The notes below the pieces were generated by a model that was not told the DNA's origin, made no database searches, and worked only from the letters and a program-made list of their open reading frames with translations. Shown here piece by piece: positions 3,114-48,659 of a stretch of DNA of 64,000 nucleotides. The stretch is from Hypericibacter adhaerens (GTDB lineage: Bacteria; Pseudomonadota; Alphaproteobacteria; Dongiales; Dongiaceae). Numbering within the stretch: position 1 is the stretch's first letter; every line of letters begins with the position of its first letter. The position numbers and the translations under genes are program-made. The stretch is taken from assembly GCF_008728835.1 (NCBI RefSeq), contig NZ_CP042582.1, positions 5,563,001 to 5,627,000 on the forward strand. Reading direction: 5' to 3'.

Positions 3114-3272
3114 GGAGCGGATAGCTTCACGGTCCCGGCAGTTTTCAGTTCAGGCTCGGTAATCATAAGGTCCGCATCCTGTACCCCCGGACTTAACTCG
3201 GGGTACAGGGCAGGTTGATCGAGGTAGCGAGGATAGCGACTCGGACGTTTCGCGAATCGGATTCGCCTCGCC

Positions 3273-3461
3273 TTAAGTGTTTTCTTTGTCCGGACGACGC
3301 ACGGTGATGATGCCCTTGGCCAGCGCGTCTCGGATTCCTGCCTCAATCAATGTGCGTGCTACATCAGAAGGCGTTTTTCCATACGCTCCGGTATCTGCAA
3401 GGTCTTGCAGATACTTATGGGTGATTGGCGGCAACCGAGGTTCAGTTTTTTTATTCGCCAT
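3273..3461 (-). CDS. Small ribbon-helix-helix-like DNA-binding protein
   Basis: A 62-residue protein. The segment RLPPI...THKYLQDLADTGAYGKTPSDVARTLIEAGIRDALAKGII fits a short strand followed by two helices as in Arc/MetJ-type ribbon-helix-helix proteins, which bind palindromic operators as dimers. The residues after it (TVRRPDKENT) are a charged tail. The start ATG at 3459-3461 follows a region containing a perfect 28-bp palindrome at 3489-3516, as expected for an autoregulated small repressor or antitoxin. No toxin gene is adjacent. The fold is inferred from the pattern, not from a search. Confidence 0.6.
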   Translation of the reverse strand: MANKKTEPRLPPITHKYLQDLADTGAYGKTPSDVARTLIEAGIRDALAKGIITVRRPDKENT

Positions 3462-3488
3462 CCCCGAATATTAACACGCCATCGCACT

Positions 3489-3516
3489 CAATTGGCGGCC
3501 AATTGGCCGCCAATTG
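3489..3516. promoter_or_regulatory. Perfect 28-bp palindrome, candidate operator
   Basis: The 28 bases read identically on both strands: the centre is CCAATTGG, flanked on each side by GGCGG/CCGCC and a further CAATTG. The unit AATTGG therefore occurs three times at 10-base spacing, about one helical turn. It lies 28 bp upstream of the start of the small ribbon-helix-helix-like gene, in its presumed promoter. Confidence 0.65.
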
Positions 3517-3567
3517 GCTGCCACAACGCCTTGACCGTAAGCGATGATTGACACAACATATGGGTGT

Positions 3568-3602
3568 AAAAAAGCCGGCGGGCAGTTGCCGCTGCCCGCC
3601 GG
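3568..3602 (-). terminator. Rho-independent terminator downstream of the YegP-like gene
   Basis: On the minus strand an 11-bp perfect stem (CCGGCGGGCAG paired with CTGCCCGCCGG) with a six-base loop is followed by six U residues (A3568-A3573 on the plus strand). It lies 34 bp beyond the stop of the YegP-like gene and is the clearest intrinsic terminator in the window. Confidence 0.85.
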
Positions 3603-3635
3603 TCACCGAATCTTCGCCTAGCTCAGAGGGGTCGT

Positions 3636-3806
3636 TCAGCTCTCATAGATCGGAGCGTTGGACGACCCCTTGTTGAGACTGATTCCGGCCAAACAATCGG
3701 CCTTGTTCACATAGCCTTCGCCAGAATCCGAAACGATTTGGCCGTTCCCAGCCTTCAGACGCCAGCGCCAGTAGCCTTGGGAGTCACGGTATAGTTGGTA
3801 GTACAT
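3636..3806 (-). CDS. YegP-like DUF1508 domain protein
   Basis: A 56-residue protein with one copy of the DUF1508/YegP motif: YQLYRDSQGYWRWRLKAGNG, then IVSDSGEGYVNKADCLAGI. Known members have one or two such beta-alpha units and no firm function. The start at 3804-3806 is set by an AAAGGAG ribosome binding site; reading further upstream gives residues that do not look like this family. The ribosome binding site overlaps the beginning of the divergent gene at 3821. A strong terminator follows at 3568-3602, so it is probably a single-gene unit. Confidence 0.85.
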   Translation of the reverse strand: MYYQLYRDSQGYWRWRLKAGNGQIVSDSGEGYVNKADCLAGISLNKGSSNAPIYES

Positions 3807-3820
3807 GTTGGTAGGCTCCT

Positions 3821-4078
3821 TTGAGGGATAGGGAACATAGGACGTTCCTAATCCGCTACACCTACGGCGGTGCAGAGTGGGGCCTAGAGCTTCCAGCTCG
3901 GAGCCTTGAGGATGCGAAAGCCAGGCTTGAGCGCCTATCCTACGCAACCATAGACGGTGAACTGGTATTAACGCTTCCGGCCGCCATTGGTCCGCTTGCC
4001 GCGGTAATCGCCAAAATCCGGAACGCCCTTCAAGCTGCCTTGCCTCCAAAACGGCGGAGAGCACGACGCGGTTATTGA
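3821..4078 (+). CDS. Small hypothetical protein, divergent from the YegP-like gene
   Basis: An 85-residue frame beginning at a TTG codon. The core (FLIRYTYGGAEWGLELPARSLEDAKARLERLSYATIDGELVLTLPA) has alternating hydrophobic strands and an amphipathic helix and looks like a real protein; I have an unverified impression of similar short alphaproteobacterial proteins. No better start exists, since a stop lies just upstream in frame and no Shine-Dalgarno sequence is visible, so the gene may be 5'-truncated. The C-terminal tail is very basic (KRRRARRGY). Confidence 0.5.
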   Translation: MRDREHRTFLIRYTYGGAEWGLELPARSLEDAKARLERLSYATIDGELVLTLPAAIGPLAAVIAKIRNALQAALPPKRRRARRGY

Positions 4079-4177
4079 ATTGGTACAATCCGAACGTGTC
4101 AATAGCTGGGTTGTCCCCATTTTCCCCACACAATTACTAGTAGCTAGCCCGATATCTATCAGGCACAGGTTTTTCTG

Positions 4178-4194
4178 CTATACCTATGGTATAG
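4178..4194. promoter_or_regulatory. 17-bp inverted repeat, operator-like
   Basis: CTATACC-TAT-GGTATAG, seven-base perfect arms with a three-base centre, in AT-rich DNA downstream of the small gene at 3821 and upstream of the DnaA boxes. It resembles binding sites of dimeric helix-turn-helix repressors, but no matching regulator gene is next to it. Confidence 0.5.
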
Positions 4195-4206
4195 TAGAGT
4201 AATTTT

Positions 4207-4222
4207 CAGAAAAAATTTTCTG
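4207..4222. repeat. AT-rich 16-bp inverted repeat
   Basis: CAGAAAA-AA-TTTTCTG, perfect seven-base arms, 12 bp after the 17-bp inverted repeat. The AATTTTC half also occurs as a direct repeat at 4201 and 4214. It could be a protein-binding site or part of an easily melted region next to the DnaA boxes. Confidence 0.45.
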
Positions 4223-4254
4223 CCGCAGTCTAAGATTCAGCGCGCATTTAAAAG

Positions 4255-4272
4255 TTATCCACATTATTCACA
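4255..4272 (+). promoter_or_regulatory. Two abutting consensus DnaA boxes
   Basis: TTATCCACA (4255-4263) is directly followed by TTATTCACA (4264-4272); both match the DnaA box consensus TTATNCACA exactly and have the same direction. They lie in the AT-rich gap between the small gene at 3821 and the 3' end of serA. Three GANTC sites (AAGATTC, GAGTC, TGATTC) are within 60 bp. The site is about 25 kb from the putative oriC, so it may be a DnaA-binding reservoir or a remnant of an accessory replicon. Confidence 0.65.
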
Positions 4273-4348
4273 ATAACGCACTTCTAGAGTCAGGATTGAT
4301 TCTGACCCGAATAGTGATTTTGAGAGACGCAACCCTTCCGCTGCTTGC

Positions 4349-10057: not shown

Positions 10058-10437
10058 GGGCGGGATCCGTGCCTTTGTCTATTTAGCCGGCCGGCCTCGA
10101 TCGTCGGTCGGCGCCGGGCCGGGGAAGCCGGAAATACCAACGAAATGTTGGGTTCGGCCGGACACTAACAAGGGAACCGGGGCCGCCCAAGCGTGAAAAC
10201 CGCCCCCCGGAGCCCCGGGCTCCGCCCCCTGCTTTATCCCCAATCGAATTCCCACCTAATATATTGATCTATAGACATTTATGATCTTATCCCCGCCACC
10301 TTGGCGAGGCTCGCCGCCAATTGTCCACATGACCCCGGCAGGCTCCTCCCCGGAAGACGCTGTCCATCCGCGAGCCGGTGTCGCATAACCGGCCCCTCAT
10401 GCTTGCCAGCCTCAGGCCCACCCCCCATTTGAGCGCC
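10058..10437. other. Divergent promoter region between dcd and hslVU
   Basis: This 380-bp gap contains an AT-rich stretch (about 10240-10290, ATATATTGATCTATAGACA) within GC-rich DNA, plus a GGAGCCC-C-GGGCTCC hairpin near 10207. hslVU operons are commonly heat-shock (sigma-32) controlled, but I cannot assign a sigma-32 promoter with confidence. No RNA gene seen. Confidence 0.4.
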
Positions 10438-16868: not shown

Positions 16869-17033
16869 AGCGAGCGATCCTAGCCCGTGTGGGCTTTTGG
16901 AAGATACTCTGGATTGCAGGGTGAGACGTGAGAGGCGCCGGGGATCAAGCGCGGCAGGGTACAAATATTGGTCGGAGAGGCTCGCTGATTGCGGTCGATT
17001 CCCGCACAGGAAGTGATAGGGGGCACTTCACGC

Positions 17034-18470
17034 TTAATCCAGCCGCACATCCATGCTCAACGGATCGCTCCTTGTCGACGATGCCGCGCTTTCGTTGATG
17101 AAGGAGGCTTTGCGCATGCAGAATTGGCGATCGACCTCGACGGAGAGCCGAAATCTGACGAGGGCCTTGGGCGGCGTCGAGGAAAAGTCCATGACGACGT
17201 TCCACCGCTGCGGCGCTGATCCATTGTCGGCCGGGGTTACCTGAAAGGAGAGCGCAGCCCCGCAATAGTAGGTTTGCGGTGTTGTCTCGCAGATCCTCCT
17301 AGTCGCCTCACCGATCTGCGCCTCGGCCAGTCCCGCAAGATAGGTCTGCCGGTCCGTGCGTTTGTCCGAAGGCACCGCCAGTGCGTTCCGCCTTTCGTCG
17401 ATCACGAACCCCTGAGCGATGTCCCGCGCCGGCACTTTATAGACCTTGCCGATCTCCACGCCCTTCGGATCGAGGAGATCGAGCACCATGCGTCCGTCTC
17501 CTCCCACCGGTTGGAACCCCGCCTCGAAACCCTTCTCCATCGTCTCCTTCATCCCGTCCGTCATGAAGGCGAGTTGCTTGTCCGTCATCGGCTTGCCATC
17601 CAGCGTACCGGAGGTGTATTCGGGGTCTCTGACGAATACGAACTTGCTGCTCTTCGTCCAGCCTTTGGAATCGCTCAGCTGTTCCATCTGCACGACGACG
17701 TCCATCGTTGTCCGATAGTCGCCGCCGTCCGAGGGTTTCCCCTCGAACACAACCTTCTCGATCCTGAAGACCTCGCTGAACGCGTCCGACGCCGAATGGT
17801 CGCGCCATGTTCTGATGTCCCAGGTTTGTGTCGACGTCGGGAAATGCAGAACCAGCGTGCCCGTTCGCTCAGGACAAGGGCCGAGATCGAAGATGACACG
17901 ATCACGGGCTTCGGCTGGCGCCGTGATGGTCGCCGGGCTGCTCTGGCCCGTCCCATTCGGATCGAGCGGGTTATACCCTTCTGTCACCGTCGCCGAGGTA
18001 TCGGCATGCGCGACCAGATTGTCTCCATAAAGACCCATCTCCGGCCCATACTTGTCGACAGTTTCAGGGCAGTATTCGCGCAGCGTGGCTCGCTGCACAT
18101 CCTTCGGTTGTTGGCTGAGCTGCTGCAGCGCACCCGTTCCCTCGAGGATGATGCTCTTGCTTGTGGCTTTTTCGCCCCGAGCCGCGGCGTCCAAAAGCTT
18201 GAGATCTTGCGGCTTGGTGTGCGCGACCACAAAGTCCGCGAAGCAATCACCGATCGCGTCGCCGTGTCCCGAATTGATCCGGCCCAGGACGATTCTCTGC
18301 CGCAGTTCCTCTGCAAACAGGCTTGCCAGGAACTCGTGATAGCTCTGGTATTTGCCCCTGGGCTCGATCCACGGATCTGCCGGGGATGCTGGCCCGTTCG
18401 TGACACATCCGTTGATACCGAGGACGCACGCAAGCGCCGACAGTGCCGCCAATCTCAACCAGGCCCGCAT
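17034..18470 (-). CDS. Putative lipoprotein of unknown family, paralogue of the gene at 24389
   Basis: A 478-residue exported protein. The signal MRAWLRLAALSALACVLGINGC ends in a lipobox-like Cys22. No known domain is recognised. From about residue 200 onward it aligns by eye with the secreted protein at 24389-25336: FDLGPCPERTGTLVL versus FGLGACPQVTGNLVI, EIGKVYKVPARD versus EEGKLYRATQLD, and a similar end (FCMRKASFINESAA versus LCVYKMHAENLSEG). The start at 18470 follows GGGGGTAAGG; a TTG seven codons earlier is less likely. It interrupts the lutA-lutB order. Base composition is somewhat lower in GC than lutB. Confidence 0.75.
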   Translation of the reverse strand: MRAWLRLAALSALACVLGINGCVTNGPASPADPWIEPRGKYQSYHEFLASLFAEELRQRIVLGRINSGHGDAIGDCFADFVVAHTKPQDLKLLDAAARGEKATSKSIILEGTGALQQLSQQPKDVQRATLREYCPETVDKYGPEMGLYGDNLVAHADTSATVTEGYNPLDPNGTGQSSPATITAPAEARDRVIFDLGPCPERTGTLVLHFPTSTQTWDIRTWRDHSASDAFSEVFRIEKVVFEGKPSDGGDYRTTMDVVVQMEQLSDSKGWTKSSKFVFVRDPEYTSGTLDGKPMTDKQLAFMTDGMKETMEKGFEAGFQPVGGDGRMVLDLLDPKGVEIGKVYKVPARDIAQGFVIDERRNALAVPSDKRTDRQTYLAGLAEAQIGEATRRICETTPQTYYCGAALSFQVTPADNGSAPQRWNVVMDFSSTPPKALVRFRLSVEVDRQFCMRKASFINESAASSTRSDPLSMDVRLD

Positions 18471-18677
18471 CCTTACCCCCACAAGCTTCAATATCTTGGT
18501 CCCGGCCTAGTCGTGATGGCTAGTGCATCGCCCTTTTTCTCCGACGAACCCTGGGCAATCGCACAGCCAGCGAAGGCCAGACCCAGAAAAGGGCGCAAAT
18601 CGCAGAAGCCGCATGCGCCCTTCTCTACTCCTCAAGCTGGAGATTGAGTTCTTTCAGCATCGCCAGACTGCCCTCCG

Positions 18678-19268
18678 TTAACATGAGCGGCGAGCCCGCA
18701 CGACTTCGATGACAGTAGCGACCAATGATCTGCACCCAATGATCTGCACCACGGGATCGGTGTCGCGCCAAATGAACATCACGCATTCATTCCAATTGGG
18801 CCCGCGCGTCGCCCGATTGGAAACGTTGCCATTTGCATCGGGGATAAAGTCTTCAAATACGGGCATGTTTTCCTCAAGCTCGCGAGCAGGGGCATATGAG
18901 ACAGTCCCACCCCAGAGCTTGCCCTGGCCTGAATCGCCCAAGGATGCCTGCGCTTGGTCGGCGTCAGTGGTAAGAGCCTCTTTGAAAAGGATCGGAAACA
19001 GGAGCTGGGCATCGGCGGGAGCATCAAACTCGGCGTCGCTTGAGTTCGCCGTTTGCACGACCGCATAGAAGCTGTGGCCGTTGTCGCCCCTGCGGTATTG
19101 GACCTGCCATTCGCGAACGTGCGCACTGCGCTGAACGAATTTTATCCGAGGCGGCTTATTGAACAGGGAGCCGTCCACCGTCATCGGAACCTGCGGATCG
19201 GCTGCGCTCGCTAACGACCCGCAGGTAACCAGCAGGGCCACCAGCGTCACGGCAAAAGACCCCCGCAT
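18678..19268 (-). CDS. Secreted hypothetical protein
   Basis: A 196-residue protein with a Sec signal peptide (MRGSFAVTLVALLVTCGSLASA, cleavage after ASA). The mature part has no recognised family; it has two cysteines near the end (NECVMFIW and IIGCRSL) that could pair. The ribosome binding site AAGGGGCGAGG precedes the ATG. It follows lutA and precedes the large lipoprotein gene on the same strand, and may have entered the locus together with it. Confidence 0.65.
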   Translation of the reverse strand: MRGSFAVTLVALLVTCGSLASAADPQVPMTVDGSLFNKPPRIKFVQRSAHVREWQVQYRRGDNGHSFYAVVQTANSSDAEFDAPADAQLLFPILFKEALTTDADQAQASLGDSGQGKLWGGTVSYAPARELEENMPVFEDFIPDANGNVSNRATRGPNWNECVMFIWRDTDPVVQIIGCRSLVATVIEVVRARRSC

Positions 19269-19635
19269 CCTCGCCCCTTGTGTCTGCGCCCCTTGTGTCT
19301 GCCCCTTTTTCAGGCTTCGACCCATTACGCTACCGAGGGTCGCGTCCCAGAGCCAGGTGGCCGGCACAGGAGCGCCGATCCACCTCCGAGATCTTCTACT
19401 TCGATAGATATCCCGTCTGGCCGAGCGATCGCCTGACAAGCCAGACGGCTTCTGCGCTCGAATTCGGTGGAAAGACTAAATCCCTATGCCTCTCAGTGAG
19501 ACATGGGGGGCCCGCCCAGTCAAGTGTGCGTAGGTGGAGATATTCAATCGGGTGGCGTCGGCCAGCGCGGCTCGCGCGGTTGGCCTTCGGCTCCGCCACT
19601 TGCGGCGGCATTGAGGAGCGTCGCTCAGAGATGCC
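19269..19635. other. Gap between lutA and the secreted-protein gene
   Basis: No gene is supported here. A short direct repeat CCCTTGTGTCTGCGCC occurs twice next to the 18678 gene (19275-19300). The stretch 19380-19500 is lower in GC. It may contain the promoter of the inserted pair of genes. Confidence 0.35.
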
Positions 19636-20424
19636 TCAAAGCGGTTCCACGGGCCCGCGCCCGATCGCGGGCCCGTCGGCCATGTCGGCCAGCACCTCGG
19701 CCACATGGCGGCATTCGATCCGGGAGCCCTGGCGCGAGAGCTTGCCCGCCATGTTCATGAGGCAGCCGAGATCGCCCGCCAGCAGCAGGTCGGCGCCGGT
19801 CGCGGCGATGTCGGCGGTCTTGTCGGCGACGATACGGTCGGAGATGGCGCCATATTTGACGCAGAAAGTGCCGCCGAAGCCGCAGCAGACATTGCTGCCC
19901 TCGAGCTCCCTGAGCGTCAGGCCGGCGACGCTGCGCAGGAGCCGGCGCGGCTGCTCGCGGATGCCGAGCTCGCGCAGGCCCGAGCAGGAATCGTGATAGG
20001 TCGCGACCGCGTCGAGATGCGCCGGCACGCCGGTGATCCCGCGCTGGTCGGTGAGGAAGGAGACGAGCTCGTGGGTCTTGGCGGCCAGCGCCTGCGCGCG
20101 CTTCTCCCATGCGGCATCGCCGGCGAAGAGGGCCGGGTAATGCGCATGGAGCATGCCGGCGCAGGAGCCCGAGGGCACCACCACGAAGTCGTAGGGCTCG
20201 AAGGCGGCAATGACCTGGCGCGCGATCGCCTGCGCGTCGGCGCGGTCGCCGGAATTATAGGCCGGCTGGCCGCAGCAGGTCTGCGCCTCCGGCACCGAGA
20301 CGCGGCAGCCCGCCTGCTCCAGGAGCTTCACCGCCGCGAACCCGATCTCGGGGCGCATCAGATCCACGAGGCAGGTGACGAGCAGCGCGACGTGGGGGTT
20401 GGGCTTTGTGTTCGCGTCAGCCAT
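19636..20424 (-). CDS. lutA: LutA, (Fe-S)-binding subunit of the lactate utilisation system
   Basis: A 262-residue protein with two CCG domains: TCCGQPAYNSGD (about residues 50-61) and SNVCCGFGGTFCVKYG (about 182-197), which bind an iron-sulfur cluster as in GlpC/HdrB-like proteins. It acts with LutB and LutC in oxidation of L-lactate. The start was placed at MADANTKPNPHVALLVTC since family members begin just before HVALLVTCLVD. In most genomes lutA is directly followed by lutB; here about 2.8 kb with two exported-protein genes separates them. Confidence 0.93.
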   Translation of the reverse strand: MADANTKPNPHVALLVTCLVDLMRPEIGFAAVKLLEQAGCRVSVPEAQTCCGQPAYNSGDRADAQAIARQVIAAFEPYDFVVVPSGSCAGMLHAHYPALFAGDAAWEKRAQALAAKTHELVSFLTDQRGITGVPAHLDAVATYHDSCSGLRELGIREQPRRLLRSVAGLTLRELEGSNVCCGFGGTFCVKYGAISDRIVADKTADIAATGADLLLAGDLGCLMNMAGKLSRQGSRIECRHVAEVLADMADGPAIGRGPVEPL

Positions 20425-28442: not shown

Positions 28443-28486
28443 GATGAACCGATCGAATGCAGCGTCGAGAGTGCCCTACAGCAAAT

Positions 28487-28614
28487 CCCCTCCCCCCTTG
28501 AGGGGGAGGGCAGGGAGGGGGATGACTCGGTCTGCGATCTCGTCGGAGTACGAAGCAGCCGACACCGAGCAGCCCCCTCCCCAACCCTTCCCCAAAAGTT
28601 GGGGGAGGGGATAA
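28487..28614. repeat. C/G-rich repeat pair, family B
   Basis: CCCCTCCCCCCTTGAGGGGGAGGG (28487-28511) and CCCCTCCCC..CCAAAAGTTGGGGGAGGGG (28576-28614) flank a GACTCGGTCTGCGATC segment shared with the copy at 23508. It fills the gap between maf and ppsR. Confidence 0.65.
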
Positions 28615-28639
28615 GCGAGCCGGAGACGAACGTCGGTAT

Positions 28640-29482
28640 CTAATCGGCGGTGCCGACATTGTCGCCGTTCCGGTGCTGCGACAGGAGCTGCAGGATCGTC
28701 GCCGCCGTTTCCTCGATCGAGCGGCGGGTCACGTCGATGATGGGCCATTTATGCTCGGAGCAGAGCCGGCGGGCCTGGATCACCTCGCGGCGCACCATGT
28801 CGGGATCGACATAGTCGGTCTCCTCGTCCTGAGACAGGAGCCGCAGGCGGTTGCGCCGGACCTGGACCAGCGAGGTCGGGTCCTTGGTGAGGCCGATGAT
28901 GAGCGGCTTGCGCGCGGCCAGGAGCTCGGGCGAGAGCGGGAAATCCGGCACGATCGGCACGTTCGCCGCCTTGATGCTGCGATTGGCGAGATAGATGCAG
29001 GTGGGCGTCTTCGAGGTGCGCGAGACGCCGACCAGGATCACGTCGGCATCCTCGTAGTCCCAGCTCGATTGCCCGTCGTCATGGGCGAGCGCGAAGTTCA
29101 TGGCGTCGATGCGGCCGAAATATTCGGCGTCGAGCTCATGCTGGCGTCCGGGCAGGTTGCGGGCCTGCCGCCCGAAGAAGGAGCCGAGCGCGCCGATCAC
29201 GGGATCGAGCACCGGGATGCAGGTGATCTGCAGCTTGCGGCAGCCCTCGGTCAGGGCGGCGCGCAGCTCCTCGTTCACCAGCGTATAGAGCACCAGGCCC
29301 GGGTGTTCCTTGATGCCGTCGAGCACCTTCTCCATCTGCCGGGATGTCCGGATCAGGGTCCAGTTATGCTCGACCGGATCGGCATCCTCGAACTGCGCGA
29401 GGCAGGCCCGCGCGACCGAGGAGATCGTCTCGCCGGTCGCGTCCGAAACCAGATGGAGATGATGGGTCAGGCCGTTCGCCAT
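28640..29482 (-). CDS. ppsR: PpsR-type kinase/pyrophosphorylase (pyruvate phosphate dikinase regulator)
   Basis: A 280-residue DUF299 protein. HLVSDATGETISSVARACL opens it, and the nucleotide-binding loop is VGVSRTSKTPTCIYLANRS (about 151-169), a P-loop-like motif of this family. These enzymes switch pyruvate phosphate dikinase or PEP synthase on and off by phosphorylation of a Thr. Its homologue (RP001/CC_0001) flanks the replication origin in Rickettsia and Caulobacter, and hemE is the divergent neighbour there too. Start ATG at 29482. Confidence 0.95.
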   Translation of the reverse strand: MANGLTHHLHLVSDATGETISSVARACLAQFEDADPVEHNWTLIRTSRQMEKVLDGIKEHPGLVLYTLVNEELRAALTEGCRKLQITCIPVLDPVIGALGSFFGRQARNLPGRQHELDAEYFGRIDAMNFALAHDDGQSSWDYEDADVILVGVSRTSKTPTCIYLANRSIKAANVPIVPDFPLSPELLAARKPLIIGLTKDPTSLVQVRRNRLRLLSQDEETDYVDPDMVRREVIQARRLCSEHKWPIIDVTRRSIEETAATILQLLSQHRNGDNVGTAD

Positions 29483-29981
29483 GATCGAGTGTCGCCAGGA
29501 TCCCGAGGGTTAAGATGCGCCGGAAATGAGCGGGTTCCCTAGGTTTTAGGCCCGCCCTTCGAGCGGAGCAATGGGGCGGATCGAGGGTCGTGAAACCGTC
29601 GGAAGAAGTCCGGGATTGAATCCGAAAGAACGGGGACAAGTCGGCATTGTGGAGCGGTGCCTCGGATTCGATCCGCCAACCGCCGAATCCGCTGCGCAGA
29701 GTCCGACCGGGCAAGCGATGCCGGGAATGGATCGGCTCATGACGCGATTCCAACAACCGGACGCCGCCGCCATTCCCGTGATTCACAGGGCGGCATTCCG
29801 TCACTGAATCCGGGATGGCGGGAGCCGTTAGGATGGAGCTGTCCCCCGACGCCCGTCGGAATCGTCCCCGGCTGTTGGAATCGAGGATGGGATGGGGACA
29901 AACGCCAATCCCCGTCTTGCACAGCCATCCACTACATCCACTCCTTTCTTATCTATAAGACTAGAATAGAAGAAGGAGGCC
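29483..29981. other. oriC: Putative chromosome replication origin (oriC) between ppsR and hemE
   Basis: A 499-bp gap between divergent ppsR and hemE, the site of the Caulobacter origin. It contains nine GANTC sites in 265 bp (29618, 29665, 29685, 29699, 29746, 29780, 29806, 29859, 29878), about ten times the expected number at this GC content. An AT-rich segment with CTTAT-CT-ATAAG lies just before hemE (29949-29960). No perfect DnaA box is present; weak ones such as TGATTCACA (29779) are. GANTC is the CcrM methylation site that marks alphaproteobacterial origins. No protein-coding frame is supported. Confidence 0.8.
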
Positions 29982-31061
29982 ATGAGCCTGACCCCCTCCG
30001 TTCCGTCCTCGACCCGCGAGAAGCCGCTGCTGCGCGTGCTGGCAGGCGAACGCCGGCGCTGCCCGCCCTTCTGGCTGATGCGCCAGGCGGGGCGGTACCT
30101 GCCGGAATACCGGGCCACACGGGCCCAAGCCGGCAGCTTTCTCGATCTCTGCTTCACGCCCGATCTGGCGACCGAGGTCACGCTGCAGCCGATCCGCCGC
30201 TACGGCATGGATGCGGCGATCCTCTTCTCCGACATCCTGGTGGTGCCGCTGGGGCTGGGTCAGACCGTGAGCTTCGAGGAAGGCCGCGGGCCCGTGCTCG
30301 AGCCGCTGCGCGGCGCCAGCGATCTGTCGCGCCTCGAGCTCGGCGGGCAGCGGGAGCGGCTGGCGCCGGTCTATCAGACCGTGCGGCAGGTGAAGGCGGC
30401 CCTGCCGCCAGCGGTCGCCATGATCGGCTTTGCCGGCGCGCCCTGGACCGTAGCGAGCTACATGGTCGAGGGCGGATCGAGCCGTGACTTCGCGATTGCG
30501 AAACGCTGGGCCGGCGAAGAGACCGAAAGCTTCCAGCGCCTGATCGATCTCCTGGTCGAGGCGACGGTGGATCATCTTTCCGCACAGGTCGAGGCAGGCG
30601 CCGAGGTGCTGCAGATCTTCGACAGCTGGGCCAATGCCTGGGTCCGGGAGAAGAGCTCGACGGCCTTGCGCCGTTGGTGCCTCGAGCCCTGCCGACAGAT
30701 CATCGCAAAGCTCAAAGCGCGCCATCCAACCGTGCCGGTCATCCTGTTCCCGCGGGCGGTCGGCCCGCATATCGCGCTCTTCGCGAAGGAAAGCGGTGCG
30801 GCAGCCTTGTCGCTCGACGAAGGTGTGCCGCTGGCCTGGGCGCGCGCGACCTTGCAGCCGATGCTGCCCTTGCAGGGCAATCTGCCGCCCAGGCTGCTGG
30901 TGGAAGGCGGTCCCGCCTTGGAGGCGCAGACCAAGCTGATCCTGAGCGAGCTGGGCCAGGGCCCGTTCATCTTCAATCTGGGCCACGGGATCCTGCCGGA
31001 GACGCCGCCCGAGCATGTCGCGGCGCTGGCGGCGATGATCCGCGAAGGTTCGCCGGCGTGA
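29982..31061 (+). CDS. hemE: HemE, uroporphyrinogen decarboxylase
   Basis: A 359-residue enzyme with the start signature PPFWLMRQAGRYLPEYRATR and the catalytic Asp in ILFSDILVVPLGLG. The middle has GFAGAPWTVASYMVEGGSS, and the end has NLGHGILPETPPEHV. It removes four acetate carboxyls to give coproporphyrinogen III. The ATG follows AGAAGGAGGCC, a very strong ribosome binding site. It is the first gene of hemE-hemH-hemJ-rho and lies beside the putative origin. Confidence 0.97.
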   Translation: MSLTPSVPSSTREKPLLRVLAGERRRCPPFWLMRQAGRYLPEYRATRAQAGSFLDLCFTPDLATEVTLQPIRRYGMDAAILFSDILVVPLGLGQTVSFEEGRGPVLEPLRGASDLSRLELGGQRERLAPVYQTVRQVKAALPPAVAMIGFAGAPWTVASYMVEGGSSRDFAIAKRWAGEETESFQRLIDLLVEATVDHLSAQVEAGAEVLQIFDSWANAWVREKSSTALRRWCLEPCRQIIAKLKARHPTVPVILFPRAVGPHIALFAKESGAAALSLDEGVPLAWARATLQPMLPLQGNLPPRLLVEGGPALEAQTKLILSELGQGPFIFNLGHGILPETPPEHVAALAAMIREGSPA

Positions 31062-44331: not shown

Positions 44332-44355
44332 CCGATGTTTCACGTGAAACATCGG
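44332..44355. promoter_or_regulatory. parS: parS centromere-like site 1
   Basis: A 24-bp perfect palindrome whose core TGTTTCACGTGAAACA (44336-44351) is the universal ParB-binding sequence. It lies in the gap between mnmE and mnmG, about 14 kb from the putative oriC and 2.6 kb upstream of parA. Confidence 0.95.
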
Positions 44356-46322: not shown

Positions 46323-46964
46323 ATGATGACGATGCCCCTGACCCCCGAAGCCTTCGCCGCCGAGACGGGTGTTTCACGTGAAACATTGGCCCGGCTGGAG
46401 CGGCTCACCGAACTGCTGGTGAAATGGCAGCGGGCGATCAACCTGGTCGCTGCGAACACGCTGCAGGATGTCTGGCGCCGGCATATCCTGGACTCGGCCC
46501 AGCTCTATCCCTTGCTGCCACCTGGCACGAGGAGCCTGATCGATATCGGCAGCGGCGCCGGGTTCCCCGGCCTCGTGCTCGCGGCGATGGGGGTGGGCGA
46601 GGTCCATTCGGTCGAGTCGGACCAGCGAAAATGCGCTTTTCAGCGCGAGGCCGCCCGAGTCGCGGGCCTCTCCGTCACGATTCACGCCCAGCGGGTCGAG
46701 ACGCTGCCCAAAATGCAGGTCGACGCAATTGTTAGTAGGGCCTGCGCCGATCTCCCCCAATTACTTGAATACTCTTTCCCTTTTATGGCACTCTCCAGCC
46801 ACTGCCTGTTCCTTAAAGGCCAGCAGGTCGAGCGCGAATTGACCGAGGCTGGTAAAGGCTGGAAGATGCAGACGGAGCGCTTTCCCAGCCGCACCGATCC
46901 CACCGGAACCGTCCTGCGATTGAGCCATGTCGAACCTCTCCGACCTCACCGCGACGAACGATAA
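46323..46964 (+). CDS. rsmG: RsmG (GidB), 16S rRNA (guanine527-N7)-methyltransferase
   Basis: A 213-residue SAM methyltransferase with DIGSGAGFPGLVLAAMG as the SAM loop and ESDQRKCAFQREAARVAGL as the next strand/helix. It methylates G527 in the 530 loop. Its first codons (GVSRETL) are encoded by a second parS site. The 3' third (46720-46820) uses TTA, TCT, TTT and CAA codons, unlike the rest of the gene, and may carry a promoter for parAB. It overlaps parA by 38 bp. Start at MMTMPLTPEAF, after a TGAGG site. Confidence 0.95.
   Translation: MMTMPLTPEAFAAETGVSRETLARLERLTELLVKWQRAINLVAANTLQDVWRRHILDSAQLYPLLPPGTRSLIDIGSGAGFPGLVLAAMGVGEVHSVESDQRKCAFQREAARVAGLSVTIHAQRVETLPKMQVDAIVSRACADLPQLLEYSFPFMALSSHCLFLKGQQVERELTEAGKGWKMQTERFPSRTDPTGTVLRLSHVEPLRPHRDER
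46370..46385. promoter_or_regulatory. parS: parS site 2, inside the start of rsmG
   Basis: A second TGTTTCACGTGAAACA, identical in core to the first, located within codons 16-21 of rsmG, 2 kb from parS site 1 and 540 bp upstream of parA. Confidence 0.95.
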
Positions 46965-47757
46965 CCCACTGAGAAAAGCCAAAGTTTTGGCGATGGCGAA
47001 CCAGAAGGGCGGGGTCGGCAAGACCACGACCGCGATCAATCTGGCGACCGCGCTGGCGGCTTGTGGGAAGCAAGTCCTGATCGTCGATCTGGACCCCCAG
47101 GGCAACGCTTCGACCGGGCTCGGCATCGAGCGGGCCCGGCGATCCGTGACCTCCTACGATCTGCTCGAAGGCAGCGCCACGGCGCGCGAAGCCCTGCTCC
47201 CCACCTTGGTCCCGGGCATGGCCATCATCCCGGCCTCGGTCGATCTGTCGGGGGCGGAGATCGAGCTGGTCTCGGCCAGCCGCCGCGAGTTCCTGCTGCG
47301 CGACGCGCTGAAGCCGGTCGTCGCCAGCTATGACTATATTCTCATCGACTGCCCACCCTCGCTGGGTCTGCTCACCCTCAACGCGCTGGTCGCCGCCGAT
47401 GCGGTGCTGGTGCCGCTGCAATGCGAGTTCCTGGCGCTCGAAGGGCTGAGCCATCTGATGATGACGGTCCAGCGCATCAAGGAAGCGCTCAATCCCACGC
47501 TCGAGATTCAAGGCGTGGTGTTGACCATGTTCGACAAACGCAACAGCTTGAGCGATCTCGTGGCGGCCGATGTGCGCGGGCATCTGGGCCACAAGGTCTA
47601 TGACACCGTCATCCCGCGCAATGTGCGGATCTCCGAAGCGCCCTCTCACGGCAAGCCGGTCCTGCTCTATGATCTGAAATGCCCCGGCGCCCAAGCCTAT
47701 ATCCATCTCGCCAGTGAGATGCTGCGCCGGGAGCGGCTGGAGCCTGAGGCGGCTTGA
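46927..47757 (+). CDS. parA: ParA, chromosome partitioning ATPase
   Basis: A 276-residue deviant-Walker ATPase. NQKGGVGKTTTAINLATALA is the P-loop with the signature lysine, DLDPQGNASTGLG follows, and ILIDCPPSLGLLTLNAL is Walker B. It binds DNA non-specifically with ATP and drives segregation of ParB-parS complexes. It overlaps rsmG upstream and shares TTGA with the parB start downstream. The neighbourhood mnmG-rsmG-parA-parB is typical of proteobacterial origins. Confidence 0.98.
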   Translation: MSNLSDLTATNDNPLRKAKVLAMANQKGGVGKTTTAINLATALAACGKQVLIVDLDPQGNASTGLGIERARRSVTSYDLLEGSATAREALLPTLVPGMAIIPASVDLSGAEIELVSASRREFLLRDALKPVVASYDYILIDCPPSLGLLTLNALVAADAVLVPLQCEFLALEGLSHLMMTVQRIKEALNPTLEIQGVVLTMFDKRNSLSDLVAADVRGHLGHKVYDTVIPRNVRISEAPSHGKPVLLYDLKCPGAQAYIHLASEMLRRERLEPEAA

Positions 47758-48659
47758 TCGACGACGGCAGCAAGAAACTCGGCCGCGGACTGTCGGCTTT
47801 ACTGGGGGCGGAAAGCGCCGACTACGCTTCGCTCGATCGGGTCCGGCTGTCCAAGATGGTGCCGATCGAGCAGCTCCAGCCGGGGCCGTTCCAGCCGCGC
47901 CGCATCTTCGGCGATGACGAGCTGGCCTCGCTCGCGGAATCGATCAAGGCCAACGGCATCCTGCAGCCGATCCTGGTCCGGCGCCGCCCGCAGCAGCCCA
48001 ACGCCTACGAGATCGTCGCCGGCGAGCGGCGCTGGCGCGCGGCCCAGCGGGCGCAGTTGCATGAGGTCCCGGTCATCATCCGCGATCTCGGCGACCGCGA
48101 GGCGCTCGAGCTGGCGCTGGTCGAGAACCTGCAGCGCGAGAACCTTTCGCCCCTGGAAGAGGCCGAGGGCTATCGCCGCCTGCTCGAGGAATTCAAGAAC
48201 ACGCAAGAGGACCTGGCACAACATGTAGGGAAGAGCCGGTCCCACATCGCCAATATGTTGCGGTTGCTCGGGCTGCCTATCGAGATCAAGGCGCTGCTCG
48301 ACAAGGGCGAGCTGACCGCCGGCCATGCCCGCGTGCTGGTCACGGCCAAGGACCCCGTGGGACTCGCCCGCCAGATCGTGAGCCAGGGCCTCAATGTGCG
48401 CCAGGCGGAGCGGATGGCGAGCGCCGCCAAGCCCGCCACCCTGCGCAAGCCCAGCCGGTCCAAGCCCGGGGCGGCCCATGACGCCGACACGCTGGCGCTG
48501 GAGCGCGACCTCTCCAACCTGCTGGGGCTCAAGGTTTCGATCCATTTCGACGGGCAGGGCGGGGCGCTGACCGTCCATTACAAGAGCCTCGACCAGCTCG
48601 ACGACCTGCTGCAGCGGCTGACCCGGGCCGCCCATTCCCCCAAAGCCACCGAAGAATAG
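47754..48659 (+). CDS. parB: ParB, chromosome partitioning CTPase/DNA-binding protein
   Basis: A 301-residue ParB. The CTP-binding domain has [17 protein letters not shown] and [12 protein letters not shown] (arginine patch), the helix-turn-helix is [25 protein letters not shown], and the C-terminal dimerisation domain ends in [16 protein letters not shown]. The N-terminal [12 protein letters not shown] is the ParA-contacting motif. The start is a TTG overlapping the parA stop; no ATG is available before the conserved KLGRGL. It binds the parS sites 1.4-3.4 kb upstream. Confidence 0.97.

Follow-up and report, generated by a model that had tools for sequence, protein, structure and literature searches.

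A putative hemE-type chromosome origin with degenerate DnaA boxes and a GANTC cluster in Hypericibacter adhaerens

It is proposed that the gap between the divergent genes ppsR and hemE of Hypericibacter adhaerens (Dongiaceae) is probably the chromosome origin (oriC), kept where the alphaproteobacterial ancestor had it, and that it is probably a hemE-type origin with weakened DnaA boxes, in which an ordinary location is combined with an unusual box set. The gap lies in the 64,000-nucleotide window analysed here (bases 5,563,001-5,627,000 of a single 5,865,246-bp contig), and positions below are those of the window unless given in Mb. The proposal is supported by synteny, conservation of the GANTC sites, clusters of DnaA boxes in relatives, a switch of gene strand, the parS sites and the trough of the GC skew; against it stand the lack of any box within one mismatch, the lack of a CtrA pair or an IHF consensus, and a stronger site with DnaA boxes and a melting element in the dcd-hslV gap.

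The 499-bp gap (29483-29981) is flanked on the left by ppsR (28640-29482, minus strand), a COG1806/DUF299 kinase-PPPase gene (PF03618, E=5e-93), and on the right by hemE (29982-31061, plus strand), the uroporphyrinogen decarboxylase gene (PF01208, E=1.4e-110). The gap between hemE and COG1806 is the experimentally mapped origin in Caulobacter and the proposed origin in Rickettsia (PMC1914354), and the Pfam assignments on either side agree with the initial annotation, which had recognized this location. Genes on both sides point mostly away from the gap, leftward on its left and rightward on its right. The AT-rich segment that had been noticed before hemE (29933-29972) is a candidate unwinding element by computed stability, its 40-mer at 29933 being the third least stable in the window and its counterpart the second in 60 kb of the sister genome. 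Within the gap, an Rfam scan returned no match, a promoter scan found no sigma-70-like site, and inspection by eye revealed no clear DnaA-trio between box and AT segment; two overlapping terminator-like sites lie on the minus strand at the start of hemE (mean of shuffles, 0.6). A consensus scan for the IHF site WATCAANNNNTTR was negative on both strands of the gap. There is also no CtrA pair (TTAA-N7-TTAA) but a single lone TTAA, so the gap is not classed as a CtrA-controlled Caulobacter Cori. On the far side of ppsR, the interval between maf and ppsR (28480-28640) holds an inverted CCCCTCCC-rich sequence that is unaligned in the sister and resembles a small mobile repeat.

The comparison with relatives extends the argument to the whole class. 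Almost all alphaproteobacterial loci compared have ppsR and hemE side by side in divergent orientation, and when words were counted without bias in 48 non-redundant ppsR-hemE gaps against their flanks, DnaA-box words ranked top: TTATCCCC occurs in 32 of the 48 gaps (143-fold over flanks) and TTATCCAC in 23 (84-fold), while TTATCCMC is missing from seven gaps besides that of H. adhaerens. GANTC sites are likewise denser in the gap than in the flanks for most relatives; members of the family have about 7-20 per kb inside the gap, compared with about 0.3-3 per kb in the flanks. This joint enrichment of the same gap in DnaA boxes and GANTC provides strong sequence evidence that it is the origin in the class generally. 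The two signals meet in GATTCAC, which resembles a DnaA box and encloses a GANTC site. It is found in 22 of the 48 gaps (L103-L171) with 21 occurrences oriented toward hemE versus 2 oriented away; given its recurrence across the class, whether CcrM methylation is linked to DnaA binding can be tested directly.

In H. adhaerens itself the initial annotation had reported perfect DnaA boxes to be absent from the gap, and the search goes further: nothing within one mismatch of TTATCCACA is present there, although the relatives have clusters of boxes. What the gap does carry is three degenerate sites conserved in the sister species, one TGATTCACA and two TTGTCCCC. The TGATTCACA site (29779-29787, plus strand), which is the Caulobacter G-box TGATCCACA with one change and contains a GANTC site, lies within a 14-bp block identical in the sister. 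In relatives TGATTCAC and TTATCCAC swap at one aligned position, and before hemE one related genus has TGATTCACC and TTATCCACC at a single position of the alignment; for this reason TGATTCACA is read as a degenerate DnaA box. A degenerate or W-box-like site, TTGTCCCCG (29631-29639, minus strand), is part of a 17-bp conserved block and aligns with GGGGATAA, a TTATCCCC box, in two other genomes (G002 and G003). The remaining site, TTGTCCCCA (29893-29901, minus strand), is conserved in the sister alignment, and its 3' end equals the Caulobacter W-box TCCCCA (PMC4285127). The longest conserved block, TTGCACAGCCATCCACTACA (29917-29936, plus strand), adjoins the AT-rich segment at about the place where several relatives carry a DnaA box.

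The genome encodes an intact DnaA in which the DHTTV motif of the DNA-binding domain is conserved. This motif reads the DnaA box, and its conservation makes an altered recognition sequence unlikely, judging from the protein sequence.

Conservation within the genus can be followed in two species only, H. adhaerens and its sister (G001). About 380 bp before hemE remain in the sister at 66% identity, with six exact blocks of 10-20 bp, among them GAACGGGGACAAGTCGG (which in the nearest genera reads GGGGATAA) and TGATTCACAGGGCG; with 17.6 per 100 bases, the gap does not belong to the intergenic regions of the window that have a high density of conserved blocks. A transporter-like (MFS) gene has been inserted in the sister between ppsR and the origin core (L104; G001:C1:5646900-5648200, approximate). 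Elsewhere in the window, a stretch of ~2.7 kb with lower GC (16964-19636) is missing from the sister.

The GANTC cluster spans 265 bp (29618-29882), with nine sites at 29618, 29665, 29685, 29699, 29746, 29780, 29806, 29859 and 29878. The count and the expectation of about one from base composition alone, both given in the initial annotation, hold on recounting. When the whole 499-bp gap is modelled as a first-order Markov chain, 3.9 sites are expected and nine or more have P = 0.015; this model is conservative, since it is trained on the gap and the sites themselves inflate its expectation. GANTC is avoided across the window (123 observed versus 327 expected), so that the cluster stands out as the densest 265-bp stretch in the window and the second densest in the 2.06 Mb of the genome sampled for this ranking. 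At least five of the nine sites are kept in the sister, where 31% of all 5-mers in the alignment retain their outer four bases; a sixth, 29685, is seemingly shifted by one base in the alignment. This conservation, which the initial annotation had asked of relatives, supports an origin here. The use of the cluster as an origin mark stands less firmly: gcrA is preceded by a 7-site cluster, and the only denser 265-bp stretch sampled (12 sites, at 2.480 Mb) lies before a lipoprotein-like gene. Since a promoter elsewhere exceeds it, the number of GANTC sites was rejected as proof of an origin when taken alone, and the cluster is by itself not diagnostic. Taken over a slightly wider interval, the region just 5' of that small glycine-rich lipoprotein-like gene (G000:C1:2480423-2480690, L045) contains 13 GANTC in about 270 bp.

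These promoter clusters invite the reading that the GANTC cluster is promoter DNA through which CcrM and GcrA control hemE and ppsR, and that the origin is elsewhere in the skew trough, and the general over-representation of GANTC in alphaproteobacterial intergenic DNA (PMC3973325) is in line with it. We give this reading little credence, as it leaves the class-wide enrichment of the gap in DnaA boxes, the skew trough and the parS sites unexplained, and promoter and origin roles may in any case coexist in one gap. The preferred reading, a CcrM-marked origin, is consistent with the gene content of the genome, in which a CcrM ortholog lies at 0.902 Mb (E=2e-155 to PDB 6pbd) and a GcrA gene is present. 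A second methylase, at 5.5518 Mb, was also considered as CcrM, but the gene at 0.902 Mb was preferred. The GANTC sites that remain hemimethylated longest in Caulobacter are those near the origin (PMC3973325), yet CcrM is reportedly not required for initiation there (PMC6090056), so a timing role of the cluster is something that we infer.

On the scale of the chromosome, the skew agrees with an origin in this region. A two-arm fit to the whole chromosome (100 stretches, ~20 kb taken per 59 kb) is best with the origin at 5.48-5.64 Mb, peaking at 5.58 Mb, and the gap is at 5.593 Mb; the position of dnaA, at the first bases of the record, gives a poorer fit than the gap region. Cumulative skew peaks at 2.585 Mb, and its minimum is wide and flat. 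In a finer contiguous tiling of 627 kb, from 5.317 Mb through the end of the record to 78 kb past its start, the trough extends over about 5.44-5.67 Mb and includes the gap. The initial annotation had proposed that the skew minimum be sought at this gap; the gap does fall inside the trough and the best two-arm range, but the minima themselves are at 5.636 Mb in the contiguous stretch and 5.115 Mb in the sampled genome. The skew thus places the origin only to a broad trough of roughly 200 kb or more, too coarse to tell apart sites tens of kilobases from each other, and local skew in the 627-kb tiling does not separate the hemE gap from the dcd-hslV gap. The parS sites, reported earlier at 14-16 kb, are perfect copies of TGTTTCACGTGAAACA at 44336-44351 and 46370-46385, 14.4 and 16.4 kb from the end of the gap; they are the only two in the genome, and the second precedes parA-parB (46927-48659). 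An annotation that relied on consensus DnaA boxes to place the origin, or on the position of dnaA 272 kb from the gap, would miss it.

A different location within the window has to be weighed. The divergent dcd-hslV gap (10058-10377), 19 kb from the hemE gap, carries three tandem DnaA boxes in one orientation, TTATCCCCA at 10234, TTATCCCCG at 10287 and TTGTCCACA at 10321, and initiation in this genus may have moved to, or be shared with, this gap, where DnaA would melt the AT core between the boxes; the hemE gap would then be left with regulatory GANTC sites alone. The core is the least stable 60-mer of the window, and likewise in 60 kb of the sister; the box spacings of 53 and 34 bp are identical in the sister, though the sequence of the core has diverged; and the hemE gap lacks the box words found here. 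When the whole genome was surveyed with a tandem-pair pattern, this was the only three-box tandem run (convergent pairs were surveyed in the sampled 41%), and TTRTCCMC has at least 100 places in the genome. The boxes belong to the genus: none of 20 other relatives has them upstream of hslV, and this includes the nearest genus, in which dcd and hslV are paired as well but only a TTTTCCACA is present.

The dcd-hslV gap, for its part, contains no GANTC site, its conservation is judged from two species of the genus, and the core of the hemE gap is still conserved and well placed. It may also be an ordinary DnaA-regulated promoter, because the gcrA promoter too has TTATCCCCA together with the 14-mer CTAATATATTGATC. 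In the 2.4 Mb sampled, the exact 14-mer is common only to the dcd-hslV gap (10256-10269, approximate) and the gcrA promoter (G000:C1:3527777, L063), which favours the promoter reading; its proximity to a TTATCCCCA box at both places makes a common regulator possible. The dcd-hslV site could serve as a new place of initiation, or else as a promoter through which DnaA controls dcd, a gene of nucleotide synthesis. Relocation or sharing of initiation is considered unlikely, and we would put no higher the version in which the origin of the genus has been split or moved, with boxes and melting element at dcd-hslV and the methylation cluster and segregation context retained at the ancestral hemE gap. 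If true, it would offer a rare view of a bacterial origin in the course of relocation, and a genus-specific DnaA site near the hemE gap offers a chance to test how bacterial origins move. The earlier idea of a variant origin with degenerate boxes is upheld in part: TGATTCACA and TTGTCCCC are conserved, but with a second DnaA-box site in this genus it is not proved which of the two is active.

The only perfect DnaA box of the window, TTATCCACA, occurs with an adjacent TTATTCACA at 4255, in an AT-rich stretch of low stability (about 3114-4348). That this stretch is the origin is scarcely credible, for the sister carries unrelated sequence at the equivalent place, with an identity of 0.37, not one block of 10 or more in common and no boxes of this kind; the candidate was rejected as not conserved. 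The stretch, apparently gene-poor, is probably acquired DNA.

For the hemE gap, a route similar to that of Caulobacter may be envisaged. By analogy with Caulobacter, where the G-boxes are moderate and the W-boxes very weak, DnaA would use TGATTCACA and the two TTGTCCCC as weak sites for its assembly and would open the AT-rich segment adjoining hemE. Passage of the fork should leave the nine GANTC sites, one of them inside the G-box-like sequence, hemimethylated until CcrM is made again, flagging an origin that has recently fired, and ParB bound to the two parS sites would segregate the region. That DnaA binds the gap, that the DNA unwinds there and that methylation has any effect are steps that we infer.

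Among known systems, the gaps of other Dongiaceae (e.g. Dongia deserti, L138) share the GANTC enrichment, the AT-rich segment before hemE and, in most, GATTCAC; most relatives keep TTATCCAC/TTATCCCC boxes, whereas this genus is without them here. Unlike Caulobacter crescentus Cori, the gap has neither CtrA TTAA-N7-TTAA pairs nor an IHF consensus, and its G-box-like site is TGATTCACA, with a GANTC site, in place of the Caulobacter G-box (PMC4285127). It resembles Cori in its flanking genes, its AT-rich segment, its GANTC sites and its weak DnaA sites replacing consensus boxes (PMC4285127, PMC4468827, PMC3973325), and the DnaA sites of Caulobacter appear tuned to low affinity (PMC4468827). The hemE-COG1806 origin region of Rickettsia has the same gene pair and the same gap position (PMC1914354), whereas H. 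adhaerens combines these with a high-GC genome, a dense GANTC cluster and degenerate DnaA boxes.
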